From NCBI GenBank assembly GCA_947177735.1, contig CAMWVP010000019.1:1-32273 (forward strand): DNA of 32,273 nucleotides, given 5' to 3'. This DNA is from an uncultured Clostridia bacterium. Lineage in GTDB: Bacteria > Bacillota > Clostridia > Oscillospirales > Ruminococcaceae. Shown piece by piece: positions 14,324-30,783 of this stretch. Within the stretch, counting starts at the first letter, position 1. Each line of letters opens with the position of its first letter. Both the position numbers and the translations under genes were made by a program. The notes beneath the pieces were generated by a model, which saw nothing but the letters and a program-made list of their open reading frames with translations, ran no database searches and was not told the DNA's origin.

Positions 14324-15511
14324 ATGACTTTAAACAATGAAAAAATCGAGTTGATAACCGACTGCACCATAGATCGCAAAGATGGCAACATAGAATTTGC
14401 GGAGATGAAGAACTCCAGATTCTGCGCCGTTGTTTCGGAATGTGATTTTAGCGGTTCGGAATTTCATCGTACTAATCTTTCGGGAGATTATTTTGAAAGC
14501 TCCGACATGAGCGGAGCCTACTTTGAAGAGGTCAACCTGTCGGGTGCGGGATTCGAGCGCTCAAATATAAGCGGCGCAGCGTTTACCGACGTAAATCTTC
14601 GCGGCGCGGCATTTGAGGGCTGCGACCTTTCGGGCGTTGAGATCACCGACTGCAAGCTCGACGGAATGACGGTCAACGGCTACGATAGTTCGGAGCTTAT
14701 CGAATTTTACAAAAACAACCATAAGGATAATGGGAATATGAAGAAGAATGCAAGAAAAGCAATTATCGCGGGCAACTGGAAAATGAACAAGACCCGCCCC
14801 GAGGCTAAGGCTCTGCTTGAGGAGCTCAAGCCCCTTGTAGCGGACGTTAAGAGCGTTGAGATCGTGGCGTGCGTACCGTTTACGAACCTCGAGACCGCGC
14901 TCAGCGTTACCGCCGGCACGAACATCAAGATCGGCGCGGAGAATTGCCACTTCGAGAAGAGCGGCGCGTTCACGGGTGAGATATCCGCGGATATGCTCGC
15001 GGAGATGGGCGTTGAGTATGTCGTTCTCGGTCACTCCGAGCGTCGTCAGTACTTCAACGAGACCGACGAGACCGTCAACAAGCGCACCAAGGCGGCGCTG
15101 GCTGCGGGCTTGAAGCCGATCGTATGCGTTGGCGAGCTGCTCTGGGAGCGCGAGTGCAACATCACCGAGGAGGTCATCGCTCGCCAGATCAAGCTTGATT
15201 TCTTCGCAATCTCCGCGGATGACGTAAAGAAGTGCGTTATCGCGTATGAGCCGGTTTGGGCTATCGGCACGGGCAAGACCGCGACCGCTGAGCAGGCGGA
15301 GGAGGTCTGCGCATTTATCCGCGCTCAGCTCGCAAAGCTGTACAGCGAGGACGTTGCCGAGGCTGTAACTATTCAGTACGGCGGCTCTATGAACGCGAAG
15401 AACGCCGAGGAGCTCGTCTCCAAGACCAACGTTGACGGCGGTCTTATCGGCGGCGCTTCCCTTAAAGCTGAGGACTTCACCGTAATTATTAAGGCTGCGG
15501 AGAACGGCTGA
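14324..15511 (+). CDS. tpiA: pentapeptide-repeat domain fused in frame to triosephosphate isomerase
   Basis: Residues 1-138 carry repeats (CDFSG SEFHR TNLSG DYFES SDMSG AYFEE VNLSG AGFER SNISG AAFTD VNLRG AAFEG CDLSG); residues 139-395 are a complete TIM with GNWKMN, GHSERR, YEPVWAIGTG, QYGGSM, GGLIGGASL. TIM-only start would be ATG 14738. Confidence 0.9.
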   Translation: MTLNNEKIELITDCTIDRKDGNIEFAEMKNSRFCAVVSECDFSGSEFHRTNLSGDYFESSDMSGAYFEEVNLSGAGFERSNISGAAFTDVNLRGAAFEGCDLSGVEITDCKLDGMTVNGYDSSELIEFYKNNHKDNGNMKKNARKAIIAGNWKMNKTRPEAKALLEELKPLVADVKSVEIVACVPFTNLETALSVTAGTNIKIGAENCHFEKSGAFTGEISADMLAEMGVEYVVLGHSERRQYFNETDETVNKRTKAALAAGLKPIVCVGELLWERECNITEEVIARQIKLDFFAISADDVKKCVIAYEPVWAIGTGKTATAEQAEEVCAFIRAQLAKLYSEDVAEAVTIQYGGSMNAKNAEELVSKTNVDGGLIGGASLKAEDFTVIIKAAENG

Positions 15512-17574: not shown

Positions 17575-17619
17575 CGGTAAAACGGCAGTGTCAGGTTTTT
17601 AGGGAATGTGAGAAATAGA

Positions 17620-17673
17620 AGTATTGTGGTGTCGAGCGAAAGGGCTAGACACCACAATTTCTTATGGAACGGC
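17620..17673 (+). repeat. hairpin repeat element, isolated copy (unit 0)
   Basis: agtATTGTGGTGTCGAGC gaaagg GCTAGACACCACAATttcttatggaacg: 14 of 15 positions pair; flanks match the three-copy array at 19153-19416. Confidence 0.85.
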
Positions 17674-17740
17674 AAAAAAAATCCCGGACGCGCAATATCG
17701 GCGTATAAAAAGGCTACTGTATAAGTGAGGGGGTGAAGGT

Positions 17741-18301: not shown

Positions 18302-19119
18302 CGGCGGAGAGCATTTTCGAGGGCGTTTCGTACATCGACGACGCCTTGATAGAGCGCTCGGGTGGCGTACTGAAACGGCGGCGCTTTGCCGCGGCAGTGA
18401 GAACGGTCGCAGGCGTTGCAGCGGCGCTGGTGCTGGCATTCGGAGGGTTGTTGGCGTACCGCGCGGTAATATTGTCCAAGACGGGCACTGACAGTCCCGT
18501 GTCTCCGATAATAACGGCGCAGCTTGACGGTGCGGATTATGAGTTCGTGAAAAAGGGAAGCGAGTTCCTGAAAGAGCACGGACTGTCCGTGCCTACCGAG
18601 GAGCTCAAAAGCGCGTATATCGGCGGCTGTTATGTTGAGTTTTACGGCTATCATGATATGCCCGACGGTGAGTTTGAGTTCTATGAGCTGAACGGCTGTC
18701 CGAACCGTGACATCATCATCGGCGATCGCGGCGGCAGGCGGTCGTACTGGGCAATGATGTGCATTGACTTACCGGGCGGAACCGTGAGCGAGCGGCTGGC
18801 GCATAAGGGCTATTATTCGGCTGAGGATGTTCATTCGCTGCGTGTTTACGGCAAAAAGGTGCGCGGCAGGGAAAAGACCAATGAGATATGGAACGCGCTC
18901 CAGAACGGCACGGAGATAGACGGCAATCGTTACGACGCTCTTATCAAAGGCGACGGCTACGACGAAGCGAACGCGCAGGAGGTCTATACGCGTCACGCCG
19001 ACAGCGCGGTGGAGATAGTGTTCAACTACGGCGAGCTGAACTGCCTGCGCCTGACCTACTATACGGATATCGGGTGCTTTAGCGGCATCGGGTATATTCT
19101 CGGCGAAGTGACATTCTGA
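18298..19119 (+). CDS. single-pass membrane protein, candidate anti-sigma factor
   Basis: ATGA overlap with the sigma gene; cytosolic N-terminus then TM (AAVRTVAGVAAALVLAFGGLLAYRAVI). Confidence 0.65.
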   Translation: MTAESIFEGVSYIDDALIERSGGVLKRRRFAAAVRTVAGVAAALVLAFGGLLAYRAVILSKTGTDSPVSPIITAQLDGADYEFVKKGSEFLKEHGLSVPTEELKSAYIGGCYVEFYGYHDMPDGEFEFYELNGCPNRDIIIGDRGGRRSYWAMMCIDLPGGTVSERLAHKGYYSAEDVHSLRVYGKKVRGREKTNEIWNALQNGTEIDGNRYDALIKGDGYDEANAQEVYTRHADSAVEIVFNYGELNCLRLTYYTDIGCFSGIGYILGEVTF

Positions 19120-19152
19120 ATTTATCGCGGCATTAGGGAGCGGGCGGTAAAG

Positions 19153-19416
19153 AGTATTGTGATACCGAGCGAAAACGCTTGACACCGCAATTTCCTATGA
19201 AACGGCTCGATAAAGGCGGCACGCCTTAAGGCGCGTGTGATATAGAAGTATTTAGGTGTCGAGCAGAAACGTTTGACACCTAAATTTTCTGTGAAACGAA
19301 ACAAAAAAGGCATTGCCTTTAGGGCGCGTGCGATATAGAAGTATTGCGTGGTCGAGCGAAAACGTTCAACCACGCAATTTTCTGTGAAACGTAATGAAAA
19401 AGGCGTCACGCCTTGT
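19153..19416 (+). repeat. three tandem copies of a ~93-nt two-hairpin repeat
   Basis: agtatt anchors at 19153, 19247 and 19340 (spacing 94 and 93 nt); each copy has a long hairpin with gAGCgAAAaCG-like loop, conserved aattttctgtgaaacg tail, then a short AAGGC-GCCTT hairpin. Confidence 0.9.
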
Positions 19417-19440
19417 GCCGCGATTTTTTTGGGAAAGGTA

Positions 19441-25726: not shown

Positions 25727-26836
25727 TTATTCGTAGTCCTCGGGGTCGTCCTCAAGACCGTTTTCCCGAATGTACTCTTCCATTCCCTCAACAAGGGAGA
25801 CATCCCATGTTCTGCCCTTCCAGAGCTGACCGTATATCTCGTAGTATACGTCAAAGTACTTTACGCTGTCTTTTCTGATTATGCGCGAGGAGTCGACCTC
25901 TGGGTTCTCGTCGGGGCGCACCTTCCGAGCCACTACCACAAGCCGCAGATCCATAGAAGTGTCCTTGTCGCAGGTGGACAGTGTAAGGAATTCGTCGCCG
26001 TATTTAACGTCAACGCCCATGTCGTAATAGCTCCTGTCCTCACACTCCAGCACGAAATCAAAGAATTCCGTCTGGTTGGTGAAGTAGGTCTTTCCCGTGT
26101 AGTCGAAAACCTCGCCGTGCTCCGGCAGAATATTTGTTATGAACACGGAGATTATCTTGTACTTGTTGTTTCGGTACAGCGTGTTGAAGTCGATAATGGG
26201 GGAGTTACGCATAAACTCCTCGTTCCACTTGTAGTTCATCAGCGCCGAGAATTGGTACTTATACCGCATATTATGACCGTAGATAACGGTGTTGTGCGGC
26301 ATCTCGTCGGGTCCGATCTTCCCCCTGTAGTCTGCGAACAGCGTGCCCTCGAACGCGTATTCCTTCTGGAAGTTCGTGTGCAGGTAGTCGTTGTTGTTTT
26401 CGGTCTGCATAACGGGGTAGTCGATGTTAGTTCCGGGAACGTTCAGCCAGCCGATAAAGTCGTTGTTCTCGTGATAGAGAGAGGCGTATTCCTCGTTGAT
26501 AGTGCCCTGCGGCAGCTGCTGGATCTGCTCCTTGGTGGGGGTCTTGTTTTTCAGATCGACGATAAACGCGTCGGTCGCTCCGAGCGGCTCGCCGTTGCTG
26601 CCTGTGCTGACGTTCGAGTCGAGCCTCGCGTACCGCAGATAGTACGCCGCTATCAGCACAACGGCAACGATAAGCACAAGAAGCGCCAAAAGAAAAACAG
26701 TCTTTCTGATGATCTCGCCGCCGCTGTCGCCCTTGCAGGGGATAAGCGCCGAGACTATGCTCTGCTTTTTATGTCTTCTTTTTTTGCCGCCGTTCTTGTT
26801 CCCACGCGGGGCAAGTCCCATATCCATTTCTGCCAT
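25727..26836 (-). CDS. class B-type sortase (paralog 1)
   Basis: TM anchor; IDYPVMQTENNNDYL, NTVIYGHNM, LTLSTCD, RLVVVARKVR. Confidence 0.9.
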   Translation of the reverse strand: MAEMDMGLAPRGNKNGGKKRRHKKQSIVSALIPCKGDSGGEIIRKTVFLLALLVLIVAVVLIAAYYLRYARLDSNVSTGSNGEPLGATDAFIVDLKNKTPTKEQIQQLPQGTINEEYASLYHENNDFIGWLNVPGTNIDYPVMQTENNNDYLHTNFQKEYAFEGTLFADYRGKIGPDEMPHNTVIYGHNMRYKYQFSALMNYKWNEEFMRNSPIIDFNTLYRNNKYKIISVFITNILPEHGEVFDYTGKTYFTNQTEFFDFVLECEDRSYYDMGVDVKYGDEFLTLSTCDKDTSMDLRLVVVARKVRPDENPEVDSSRIIRKDSVKYFDVYYEIYGQLWKGRTWDVSLVEGMEEYIRENGLEDDPEDYE

Positions 26837-26925
26837 TATTGATGTTCCTTTCAGAATGCGCTTTGTGGTATGATATGAACTTGTACACACGACAGTATGC
26901 CGTGTGTACAGTTCTTGTTATTTGT

Positions 26926-28083
26926 TTAGCCTGCGAAATCCTTGATGATCTCCTTCGGCCACTTTCTGCCGCCCCAGCTTCCGCCTGCGTAGTTGTTGTA
27001 GTAAGCGTCGAAGAACAGGGGATCGGGGTTAGCGTATGCCTTGCTTACGTCAACGGAGGGATCCTCGCCGTCGCGAACCTCGCGCGCGAAGATTACCCAG
27101 CGCAGATGAGCCTCGGGGCTTGCCGAGATGGAAGGAGTACCGTAGCCCCACATACAGGTGGACAGCGTAAGCAGCCTGTCGCCGTACTGGATGTCGACGT
27201 CGGGATTGAGGAACGTAGAGCGGTCGAGAATGTTCGCCACATAGTTGTCGAAGTCGGACTTGCTGCCGAACTTGCGGACGGTGTGATACGCGAATACGGG
27301 ACCGTCCTCCTCTTCAACGTTCGTGAGGATACCGCCGAAGATCTTGTAAGTGGAGTTCTTGTAGATGGTGTTGTAAGTAACGGTCGGGTTGTCCTTGTAG
27401 AAGCTGATGTTTTCGGGGTCGCCCGTCGTGAGGGAGTAGTTGAAGTAGTTGGGCAGTCCGCCGAAGTATTCGGCGCCCGCGTCGTTATGACCGTAAATAA
27501 CGGTGTTTGCGGGAAGTCCGCCCGGGGTTACCTTGTCGTGATAGTCAACATACAGCGTACCGGTCTTGCTGGGGTTGTTGTAGAAGTCATGAGTGAGGTA
27601 ATACTCGTTGTCATCCGCCTGCATAACGGGCAGATTCAGCCAGCTTCCGATACTGATCCAGCCTACGATATCGGGATTGATATCCAGAAGCTCCTCAAAG
27701 TTGCTCTGAATTACTGCGGGAACGCTCGGATCCTCAGCGTAGGGGTCGCTTGTGCTGCTCGAGGAGTTGGTGCTCGAAGAGTTATTGGACGTCGTGCTGC
27801 TCGAAGAGTCGTTGCTCGAAGAATTATTGGACGAGGTGCTGTTCGAGTCGGTCGACGACGAGCCCCCCTGGCTGTAAATATCCGCCAGACCGCTGTTCTG
27901 CTGTTTGTCCTTCGCCGAGTTTACGCCGTTGATGACGAGTATCGTCACGGTAACGACAAGCACTACCGCCGCCGCGATAAAGATGAGCTTGCGTATCTTC
28001 TCCGCGGGCTTATCGCCCTCCCAGGGGATAAGATATTTCACAACGCGCATCAGCGCATTGTCCTTTTCTTCCTTGTGTGCCAT
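26926..28083 (-). CDS. class B-type sortase (paralog 2) with Ser/Asn-rich linker
   Basis: NLPVMQADDNEYYLTHDF, NTVIYGHNDAG, LLTLSTCMWGYGTP, RWVIFAREVRDGEDPSVD. Confidence 0.9.
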   Translation of the reverse strand: MAHKEEKDNALMRVVKYLIPWEGDKPAEKIRKLIFIAAAVVLVVTVTILVINGVNSAKDKQQNSGLADIYSQGGSSSTDSNSTSSNNSSSNDSSSSTTSNNSSSTNSSSSTSDPYAEDPSVPAVIQSNFEELLDINPDIVGWISIGSWLNLPVMQADDNEYYLTHDFYNNPSKTGTLYVDYHDKVTPGGLPANTVIYGHNDAGAEYFGGLPNYFNYSLTTGDPENISFYKDNPTVTYNTIYKNSTYKIFGGILTNVEEEDGPVFAYHTVRKFGSKSDFDNYVANILDRSTFLNPDVDIQYGDRLLTLSTCMWGYGTPSISASPEAHLRWVIFAREVRDGEDPSVDVSKAYANPDPLFFDAYYNNYAGGSWGGRKWPKEIIKDFAG

Positions 28084-28188
28084 TGTTGTTTCCTCCTAAT
28101 AAATAATAATAATTATGAAATTTTGTGTATAGCAGATCAATCTTACTTGTTTGATCTGCATTTACATTTTGTCAAGTTGATAGAGATG

Positions 28189-29412
28189 TCAGCCGGCGAA
28201 ATCCTTGATGATCTCCCTCGGCCACTTTCTGCCGCCCCAGCTTCCGCCTGCGTAGTTGTTGTAGTAAGCGTCGTAGAACAGAGGATCGGGGTTGGCGTAT
28301 GCCTTGCTTACGTCGACGTAGGGATCCTCGCCGTCGCGAACCTCACGCGCGAACACTACCCAGCGCAGGTGCGCGTCATAGCTTGTCGCAAGTGACGGCG
28401 TGCCGTAGCCCCACATACAGGTAGACATGGTAAGGAGCTTGTCGCCGTACTGGATATCGACGTCGGGATTGATGAAGGTGGAGCGGTCGAGAATGTTCGC
28501 CACATAGTTGTCGAAGTCGGCTTTGCTGCCGAAATTGCGGTAGGTGTGGTACGCGAACACGGGACCGTCGGATTCGTCAACGTTTACGAGTGCGCCGCCG
28601 AAAATCTTGTACTTGGAGTTCTTGTAGATGGTGTTGTATGTAACAACGGGGTTGTTCTTATAGAAGCTGATGTTGTTCGGATCGCCCGTTGTGACCGAGT
28701 AATTGAAGTAGTTCGGCAGACCGCCGAAGAAAACCGCGCCCGCGTCGTTGTGCCCGTAAATAATGGTGTTTGTGGGACCGTCCGCCGTTACCTTGACGTT
28801 ACAGTTGACATAAAGCGAACCCATTCTGAAGTAATTCCTGTAAAAGTCATGAGTGAGATAATACTCATTATCGTTCGCCTGCAAAACGGGTTGATCAAGC
28901 CAGTTTCCGATAGAGATCCACCCCACGATATCGGGATTGATCGCCCAGAGGTCTCTGAAGCTGCTTTGAATACCTTCGGGAGGCGGGGTAGATAAAGGCG
29001 AGGTGGGTGATTCGGCGTAGTATTCCGCCGAGGGTGTTTCAACGTAACCGTTGTCTGCCGGGGGCGTTTCAACGTAGCTGCTGCTTGAACTGCTCGAAGA
29101 ACTGCTTGACGAGCTGCTTGTTGAACTGCTGGATGAGCTGCTCGACGAACTGGTCGATGAAGTGCTTGTCGAGCTGCTTGTTGAACTGCTCGAGGATGAG
29201 CTTGAGGTATCGGAAGTGCTTGATGAAGACTCGGACGACGAGCTGTCCGTGTTCGACGAGTTGGCGTTCTCGTAGATATTTGCCAGACTGCTGTTCTGTT
29301 TTCTGCTTTCAGCCGAATTGATGCTGTTGGCGATAACGACCGAAACGGGAACGCCAAGCACTATTGCGGCACCGATAATAAATAAAACGAGGTGTCGTTT
29401 TACAAAATCCAT
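28189..29412 (-). CDS. class B-type sortase (paralog 3) with extended poly-Ser linker
   Basis: DQPVLQANDNEYYLTHDF, NTIIYGHNDAG, LLTMSTCMWGYGTP, RWVVFAREVRDGEDPYVD; ATG at 29412 preferred. Confidence 0.9.
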   Translation of the reverse strand: MDFVKRHLVLFIIGAAIVLGVPVSVVIANSINSAESRKQNSSLANIYENANSSNTDSSSSESSSSTSDTSSSSSSSSTSSSTSTSSTSSSSSSSSSSTSSSSSSSSSSSSSSYVETPPADNGYVETPSAEYYAESPTSPLSTPPPEGIQSSFRDLWAINPDIVGWISIGNWLDQPVLQANDNEYYLTHDFYRNYFRMGSLYVNCNVKVTADGPTNTIIYGHNDAGAVFFGGLPNYFNYSVTTGDPNNISFYKNNPVVTYNTIYKNSKYKIFGGALVNVDESDGPVFAYHTYRNFGSKADFDNYVANILDRSTFINPDVDIQYGDKLLTMSTCMWGYGTPSLATSYDAHLRWVVFAREVRDGEDPYVDVSKAYANPDPLFYDAYYNNYAGGSWGGRKWPREIIKDFAG

Positions 29413-29577
29413 GTGTTGCCTCCTGATTATGTCTTTTTTGGGGAATCGCCGAATTTGCATTTGTTCCGCAAATCAAGAAAAGCGGTAAACAGTCAATTCC
29501 AAGACGAATATGAGAGATCAATAAAACCGGATTTTAAGTAAGATATACAGTATTTCAGACGTTTACCGTAACTGCCC

Positions 29578-30783
29578 TTAGTAGCTCAGCAGCTTGGAGC
29601 GATCCCAAACGGAACCCTCCCAATAGTAATTGCCGCCGGAGCTGTTGAGGACTTCGTAATAGTAGTCAAAGAGCCTTGCCTTATAGTTTCTCGTAGCGAC
29701 GGAGGTGTCTACCGAGGAGTCCTCGCCGTCGCGCACCTTTCTCGCGAACAGCACCCAGCGTGTGTCTATCTGACGTCCGAGAGGCCAGTAGCAGGTCGAG
29801 AGCGTGAGCAGGTCGTCGCCGTAGGTGAGATCGACGTCGGTGAAGAACCAGCTTCTGTCCATGATCTCGATGATGTAGTTGTTGAAGTCGTCCGCGTTGT
29901 CGAAGCGGGTCTTGGTGATGTAGTCGAAAACCTCTCCGTACTGCGGCTCGGTGTTCGCCATAATACCCGCGAATATCTTGTAGACCGCGTTTCCGCCGGT
30001 GGGAGTCTCGAGCTGGACTGTCGGGTGGGACTTATAGAACGCCAGCGGCTCGGCATACTCGTCGTCGGGAACGTAGTGCATTACATACGCGAAGAAATCG
30101 CCGCTAGACATATTGTGCCCGAAGAGAATTTTGTTTTTGTCGTTGGGATCGTTCCAGTCGTTGCGGTAGGTCGAGAACACCGTGCCCGAGATGGATTCGT
30201 TGCCGAAGAAGTCGTGATTCAGATAGTAATCGTTGTTTGTTGTCTGTACAACGACGTTGTTCAGCATAGTGCCCGTGATCTTGACCCATGCTTTGGTATC
30301 GGGGTTTGTTTTAAGAAGGTAATCGAAGTCCGCCTCGATAGGAAGATCGACAACGGGCGTAAGGTCTACGTCATCACCGTGAACGCGGCTGCCCGCCGTC
30401 GTCGCGATATCGATCGTGGGGTTTGCGATGTACCCGGGCTGCTGATAGCTGCTTGACATACTCGGCATCGGAGTGCCCGCGTTATCGGCGATGTTGCTGT
30501 TGGTATCGCCACCCTGCTTTATGCCGGTGAGCTGCCAGATGAGGAATGCAAACGTGCCGATGAGTATCGCGAAAGCGACAAGCAGCAGTGCCTTGCGTCC
30601 CTTTTCTGCCGCGGAATCGCGAGCCTGAGGGAACACCGCCACCGCCATTCTCACGAACGGATTTTTTGATTTGCGTTTTTTTGAGCCGCCCGAGGGACGT
30701 TTTTTTGGCGCGTTCCTCACATCTACGTCGAATTTATCCAGCGCGTAATCTCTGTCGTTTCTGTTTCTGTTTGAGTTAGCCAT
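29578..30783 (-). CDS. class B-type sortase (paralog 4)
   Basis: NVVVQTTNNDYYLNHDF, ILFGHNMSSGDFF, LLTLSTCYWPLG, RWVLFARKVRDGEDSSVD. Confidence 0.9.
   Translation of the reverse strand: MANSNRNRNDRDYALDKFDVDVRNAPKKRPSGGSKKRKSKNPFVRMAVAVFPQARDSAAEKGRKALLLVAFAILIGTFAFLIWQLTGIKQGGDTNSNIADNAGTPMPSMSSSYQQPGYIANPTIDIATTAGSRVHGDDVDLTPVVDLPIEADFDYLLKTNPDTKAWVKITGTMLNNVVVQTTNNDYYLNHDFFGNESISGTVFSTYRNDWNDPNDKNKILFGHNMSSGDFFAYVMHYVPDDEYAEPLAFYKSHPTVQLETPTGGNAVYKIFAGIMANTEPQYGEVFDYITKTRFDNADDFNNYIIEIMDRSWFFTDVDLTYGDDLLTLSTCYWPLGRQIDTRWVLFARKVRDGEDSSVDTSVATRNYKARLFDYYYEVLNSSGGNYYWEGSVWDRSKLLSY

Follow-up and report, generated by a model that had tools for sequence, protein, structure and literature searches.

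Short palindromic elements located inside intrinsic-terminator hairpins of an uncultured Clostridia bacterium and its relatives

The repeat array and its neighbours

The window, that is, the whole 32,273-nucleotide stretch of DNA analysed in this study, belongs to a genome of 3.36 Mb (G000) and carries three head-to-tail repeat units on the forward strand, from 19133 to about 19413. The starts of successive units lie 94 and 93 nt apart. Unit 1 (19133–19225), unit 2 (19226–19318) and unit 3 (19319–19413) were matched by the covariance model described below with 78, 87 and 92 bits, respectively. Flanks and loops are fixed in these units, as in a fourth copy described below; the stems vary yet remain paired. 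Each unit contains a long hairpin, located at 19156–19191 in unit 1, at 19250–19285 (15 pairs) in unit 2 and at 19343–19378 in unit 3, and ends with a small hairpin: AAGGCGGCACGCCTT at 19213–19227, AAAGGCATTGCCTTT at 19306–19320 and AAGGCGTCACGCCTT at 19400–19414. The latter two also read as intrinsic-terminator-like on the minus strand. A preliminary description of the locus had reported three tandem copies at this spacing, which the repeat analysis confirmed, and the stems it quoted for units 2 and 3, as well as the small hairpin following each unit, were located at the positions given above. It had also called unit 1 more decayed, and the long hairpin of this unit is indeed imperfect. The array was correctly recognised as tandem, but the proposed bounds of 19153–19416 miss its beginning at 19133. 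A fourth, single copy (unit 0, forward strand, 17599–17684, hairpin at 17623–17658) was found outside the array, directly 3' of gpmI (iPGM).

Although the hairpins themselves had been noticed earlier, the key feature of the array, its position inside another hairpin, had not. The upstream gene ends with the stop codon TGA at 19117–19119, and 4 nt further on its intrinsic terminator has its 5' arm, ATCGCGGCA (19124–19132). On the other side, the array is bracketed by TGCCGCGATTTTTTT (19416–19430), which comprises the 3' arm TGCCGCGAT (19416–19424) and the T run. Both arms were identified as an inverted pair and by the arm test described below, and in the predicted RNA fold of the whole locus 19124–19132 pairs with 19416–19424 around the array. 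Unit 0 has no convincing flanking arms, its pairing score of 16.5 being near the background. An open frame of 95 amino acids runs through the array on the minus strand (19122–19409); it has no Pfam match and was judged to be a by-product of the repeats rather than a gene. The Rfam search of the window gave no family at the gathering threshold.

Two further features of the window were observed. A single open frame at 14324–15511 (forward strand) encodes a triosephosphate isomerase (Pfam TIM at residues 147–391) with an N-terminal pentapeptide-repeat region (repeats at about 38–115). Alternatively, TIM alone could be translated from an internal ATG at 14738, which has AAGGA in front of it. At 25727–30783 (minus strand), four sortase-domain proteins are encoded in succession, two above and two slightly below the Pfam cut-off, some of them with long Ser/Thr-rich linkers, and a SpoIID-domain protein adjoins them.

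Anatomy of the element and covariation of its stems

The element is a dispersed, non-coding palindrome of about 75–93 nt (93–94 nt for the units in the window). From the 5' side, a copy consists of TTARGGMRCGTGCGRTATAGAAG, a long hairpin of 36 nt whose stem varies and whose apex, TCGAGCGAAAACGYTYGA, is fixed, then TTTTCTATGAAACG and a stretch rich in A, which a small GGCnnnGCC hairpin often follows. Any terminal inverted repeats are imperfect only; the element begins with TTARGG on the left and finishes A-rich or with GCCTT on the right, and, examined for a target-site duplication, its left end reads TTA and its right end TT plus a variable base. The motif AAAGGCNNNGCCTT of the small hairpin is confined, in G000, to element sites, and for this genome the small hairpin was rejected as an independent repeat. 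Six G000 copies (C10:41097, C50:13161, C54:6292, C101:4201, C105:11525 and C165:6131) lack the 3' part, i.e. the small hairpin and the 3' terminator arm; some of these end near ACGCCTT, as if a deletion had occurred between ACG repeats, and they may be either decay products or alternative ends.

The preliminary description held that the structure of the hairpins, not their sequence, is maintained. We examined this in an alignment of 30 copies, using shuffled and slid partners as controls. The proposed pairs were standard pairs in 87.6% of cells, compared with 83.7% after shuffling and 32–49% after sliding. Two-sided changes were counted in 25 cells, against 8.4 expected from the shuffles (0 of 500 reached 25) and 2–4 with slid partners, so that covariation stands as a description. 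The signal sits in the inner helix (95% paired, two-sided change in 7 of 14 pairs); the outer ATAGAA/TTCTAT helix is paired in 86% of cells and is mostly invariant, and the outermost CGT/ACG helix, scored as written, pairs in 56%. The changes often come in blocks of 2–4 stem pairs, e.g. GGTGTC/GACACC, GTGGTC/GACCAC, GCAGTC/GGCTGC and AAGGGTC/GACCCTT. Since both selection on structure and quasi-palindrome correction by template switching predict such blocks, covariation alone is no proof of RNA function, and the blocks could have arisen without selection on an RNA.

These data bear on the idea that the element is a structured 3' UTR RNA (a source of sRNA, an mRNA stabiliser or a bidirectional terminator) kept by selection, with copies made by duplication and compensatory changes reflecting RNA function. 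The excess of inner-stem covariation over the shuffles would fit such a role, as would the terminator-like reading of the small hairpin on the minus strand and the placement at gene 3' ends with an orientation bias, both quantified below. On the other hand, the blockwise stem differences can also be produced by quasi-palindrome correction, Rfam offers no match, most congeners lack the element, and orthologous genes manage without it. We regard an RNA under selection as improbable, and no evidence for a functional ncRNA, one of the options raised initially, was obtained. Covarying tandem hairpins at gene 3' ends in such genomes can mimic a new ncRNA or, via open frames, small proteins.

Distribution and position inside terminator hairpins

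BLAST located the element at 37 places in G000. The covariance model, built from the 30 copies and searched in G000 and 36 congeners, gave 59 matches in G000; recurrence on this scale greatly exceeds what chance would give. A further 30 matches were found in G027 and 20 in G029; a few other congeners had at most 7 and most of the 36 had none. Beyond the genus, the model gave three marginal matches in two genomes. The core pattern was present in only four MAGs (Oscillospiraceae/Ruminococcaceae) of a collection of 85,462 species and gave no match in the IMG/VR viral contigs. Some loci, the array in the window among them, are tandem sites with two or three units. Few sites appear common to different species, the clearest candidate being G000:C32:15574 and G029:C75:8153, which are homologous on both flanks and each hold a decayed copy, with the orientations called opposite; possibly, the two represent one ancestral copy.

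Terminator halves were observed around many copies: AAAGCGCCCG and CGGGCGCTTTTT at C24, GGGCGGCGTCA and TGATGCCGCCC at C145, and AAAACTCCCCCG and CGGGGGAGTTTTTT at G027:C35. In predicted folds the terminator arms close around the element. An initial arm test based on duplex energy was blurred because the small hairpin is shared, and was replaced by a score of local pairing in which the 22 nt preceding a site are compared with the 60 nt that follow it, with permuted 3' flanks as the control. The mean flank complementarity was 20.1 compared with 16.35 for the permuted flanks (z=10.3, 96 sites, 0 of 20,000 permutations). Per genome, the excess was z=5.1 in G000 and z=6.6 in G027, the latter contrast being weakened by the resemblance of many G027 terminators to one another; in G029 no excess was seen (z=0.3). 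A strict class, defined by a score of at least 25 and an arm no more than 3 nt from the element, comprised 23 of the 96 sites, while the permuted sets had a mean of 5.5 and a maximum of 14 (5000 permutations). Of all the sites, only roughly one quarter to one third possess clear arms, and several G000 copies have no 3' arm.

The neighbouring genes show where the elements reside. Among the 85 sites at which both neighbours were called, 46 lie between convergent genes (39 of 190 in the background, p=5e-8) and only 2 between divergent ones (27 of 190, p=0.002); '++' sites outnumber '--' sites by 26 to 11 (p=0.02). The element is also found within a hairpin of its own kind: at G027:C19:3005 one copy lies within the loop of another. 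At G027:C170 and G029:C55 the loop of the big hairpin contains a small hairpin.

At orthologous sites of sister species, the same or an equivalent terminator is found without the element, in two clear cases and one weaker one. Downstream of the HPF gene, G029 has the element-free terminator TTCCCCCGTTCCGTTTTGGAATGGGGGATTTTT, i.e. TTCCCCCGTTCC-GTTTT-GGAATGGGGGATTTTT, and G019 an element-free terminator near-identical to it, whereas in G000 the element separates TTCCCCCGTTCC from GGAATTGGGG (3' side also given as GGAATTGGGGAT). At the metallo-hydrolase gene that precedes a sigma factor gene, AAAAGCACGGGAAAATATCCCGTGTTTTTT in G029 corresponds to AAAGCACG, the element and CCGTGCTTTTTT in G000, and the sequence downstream matches between the two genomes. 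In the weaker case, the Rex gene, G000 has the element between AAAAATCCCC and GGGGATTTTTT, and relatives have terminators of unrelated sequence in the same place, which would be consistent with insertion into a terminator. The sister species, at 80–94% protein identity, are too distant for exact junctions or a target duplication to be read. The array in the window has no orthologous empty site, the upstream gene having one partial homologue in the genus. In G020, the loop of the terminator 3' of the HPF gene (L140) contains GGCGGCTGCCTT, which resembles the small hairpin without the big one.

Mobilisation and comparison with known systems

The dispersed copies, their patchy occurrence among species, the element-free orthologous sites and the nested copy bear out the earlier suggestion of a REP/MITE-like DNA hairpin. 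These are real, dispersed and probably mobile palindromic elements with an unusual target, and it appears fairly likely that the family is a non-autonomous REP/MITE-like element whose insertion into terminator hairpins resembles that of IS1272/TnSha1 (IS1182 family). The element would move into the apical part of an intrinsic-terminator hairpin at a gene end; with both outer arms and the T run kept, the terminator could still fold as a branched hairpin holding the element in its loop, and at some sites tandem units, two or three, arise. Residence in a terminator loop may do the host little harm. Intrinsic terminators would be safe landing sites for small mobile DNA, as they are frequent, lie outside genes and are defined by shape, not by sequence.

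We looked for an enzyme that could move the element; because IS present in several copies readily drop out when MAGs are assembled, the absences reported here, of an enzyme or of a parent element, are not decisive. A Y1 transposase (RAYT, PF01797/Y1_Tnp) is absent from G000, G027, G029 and G017, and is present in eight other congeners, the majority of which carry few copies of the element or none. That the element is an ordinary REP mobilised by a RAYT would agree with short palindromes dispersed at gene ends and with the report of some REPs inside palindromes (PMC3733652). Against this, the carriers named above have no Y1_Tnp, and the foot of the stem bears no GTAG/CGTC tag in the 30-copy alignment. 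This origin is disfavoured and in our opinion very improbable, its only rescue being the loss of RAYT to assembly gaps in several carriers. Other candidates were rejected: reverse transcriptases and group II introns do not correlate with copy number (G029, with 20 copies, has none), and IS110/IS1111 (Transposase_20) is absent from G027, G029 and G017 and is represented in G000 by a 39-position fragment with a stop. Scans for DDE transposase frames of the Y-R-E-K type covered 1.53 Mb (57%) of G017 as well as the 20 smallest contigs of G000 and gave none. The earlier proposal of mobilisation by a transposase thus has no positive support: the high-copy genomes have no Y1, IS110 is absent from them or degenerate, and the searches yielded no enzyme.

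Could the copies have spread with no dedicated enzyme? A replication fork stalled at a terminator hairpin might switch to another hairpin, copy it and return, which would both spread copies and rewrite stems. Such template switching would explain why insertions lie at hairpin apices, in one case in another element's loop, and would account for the blockwise stem changes, for the lack of a clear target duplication and for the failure of the searches for Y1, reverse transcriptase, IS110 and, in part, Y-R-E-K enzymes to yield a candidate. However, the consistent left and right ends look like defined ends, and of the hairpins only this single family reached tens of copies; we consider this process quite improbable. 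It is conceivable, though somewhat doubtful, that the element is a mobile hairpin with ends recognised through their structure, able to target any terminator-type hairpin at its loop, copies of the element included, with an undescribed enzyme or replication process as the mover and the host terminator still foldable. Within the favoured reading, insertion of a REP/MITE-like element into terminators, the most likely enzyme is an IS1182-type DDE transposase that targets hairpins and would act in trans, although the partial search did not reveal it; we give most weight to it because IS1272/TnSha1 behaves likewise (PMC4923244).

In staphylococci, IS1272/TnSha1 targets hairpins, mostly intrinsic terminators, in both orientations and with no sequence preference, removing the apical part of the stem-loop bluntly without target duplication (PMC4923244). 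Our element shares the insertion within terminator hairpins, as seen from the arm test and the orthologous sites, but IS1272/TnSha1 encodes a transposase and measures kilobases, whereas the element is shorter than 100 nt, non-coding, itself a hairpin and present in tens of copies. As in MITEs, it is short (<~300 bp), non-coding, multi-copy and dispersed; an autonomous parent sharing its ends was seen neither among the 5'-end matches in G000, where a longer parent was rejected (17 of 17 were the short element), nor in 1.53 Mb of G017. Integron attC sites are likewise tandem imperfect hairpins with variable sequence and conserved structure, but at the element neither attC core motifs nor cassette genes are evident.

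By size and position, REPs are the nearest class. Those of the GTAG/CGTC families occur as dispersed, short palindromes, chiefly where the neighbouring genes are convergent or unidirectional and sometimes grouped, and a few families are located inside palindromes (PMC3733652). The present unit is longer than a REP, combines a long and a small hairpin without the tag, has main carriers without RAYT and is sited in gene-specific terminators. Group IIC introns, ribozyme retroelements with a reverse transcriptase, also use terminator hairpins as targets and insert after the hairpin (PMC3898094); by contrast, the element lies inside the hairpin and has no intron structure (no Rfam match). The open-licence literature gave no description of an element family under 100 nt resident in terminator loops. 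With terminators that are occupied in some cases and empty in others, the family is a natural resource from which one could learn how much a terminator loop tolerates before function is lost and which enzyme reads the shape of a hairpin. SPRITE, RUP and BOX of Streptococcus pneumoniae are non-coding structured repeats that insert into one another, and SPRITE is enriched at gene 3' ends and terminator-like, with no empty site known (PMC3049150). The element described here, by contrast, sits within a terminator that is distinct from it and specific to the gene, and its empty sites were observed.
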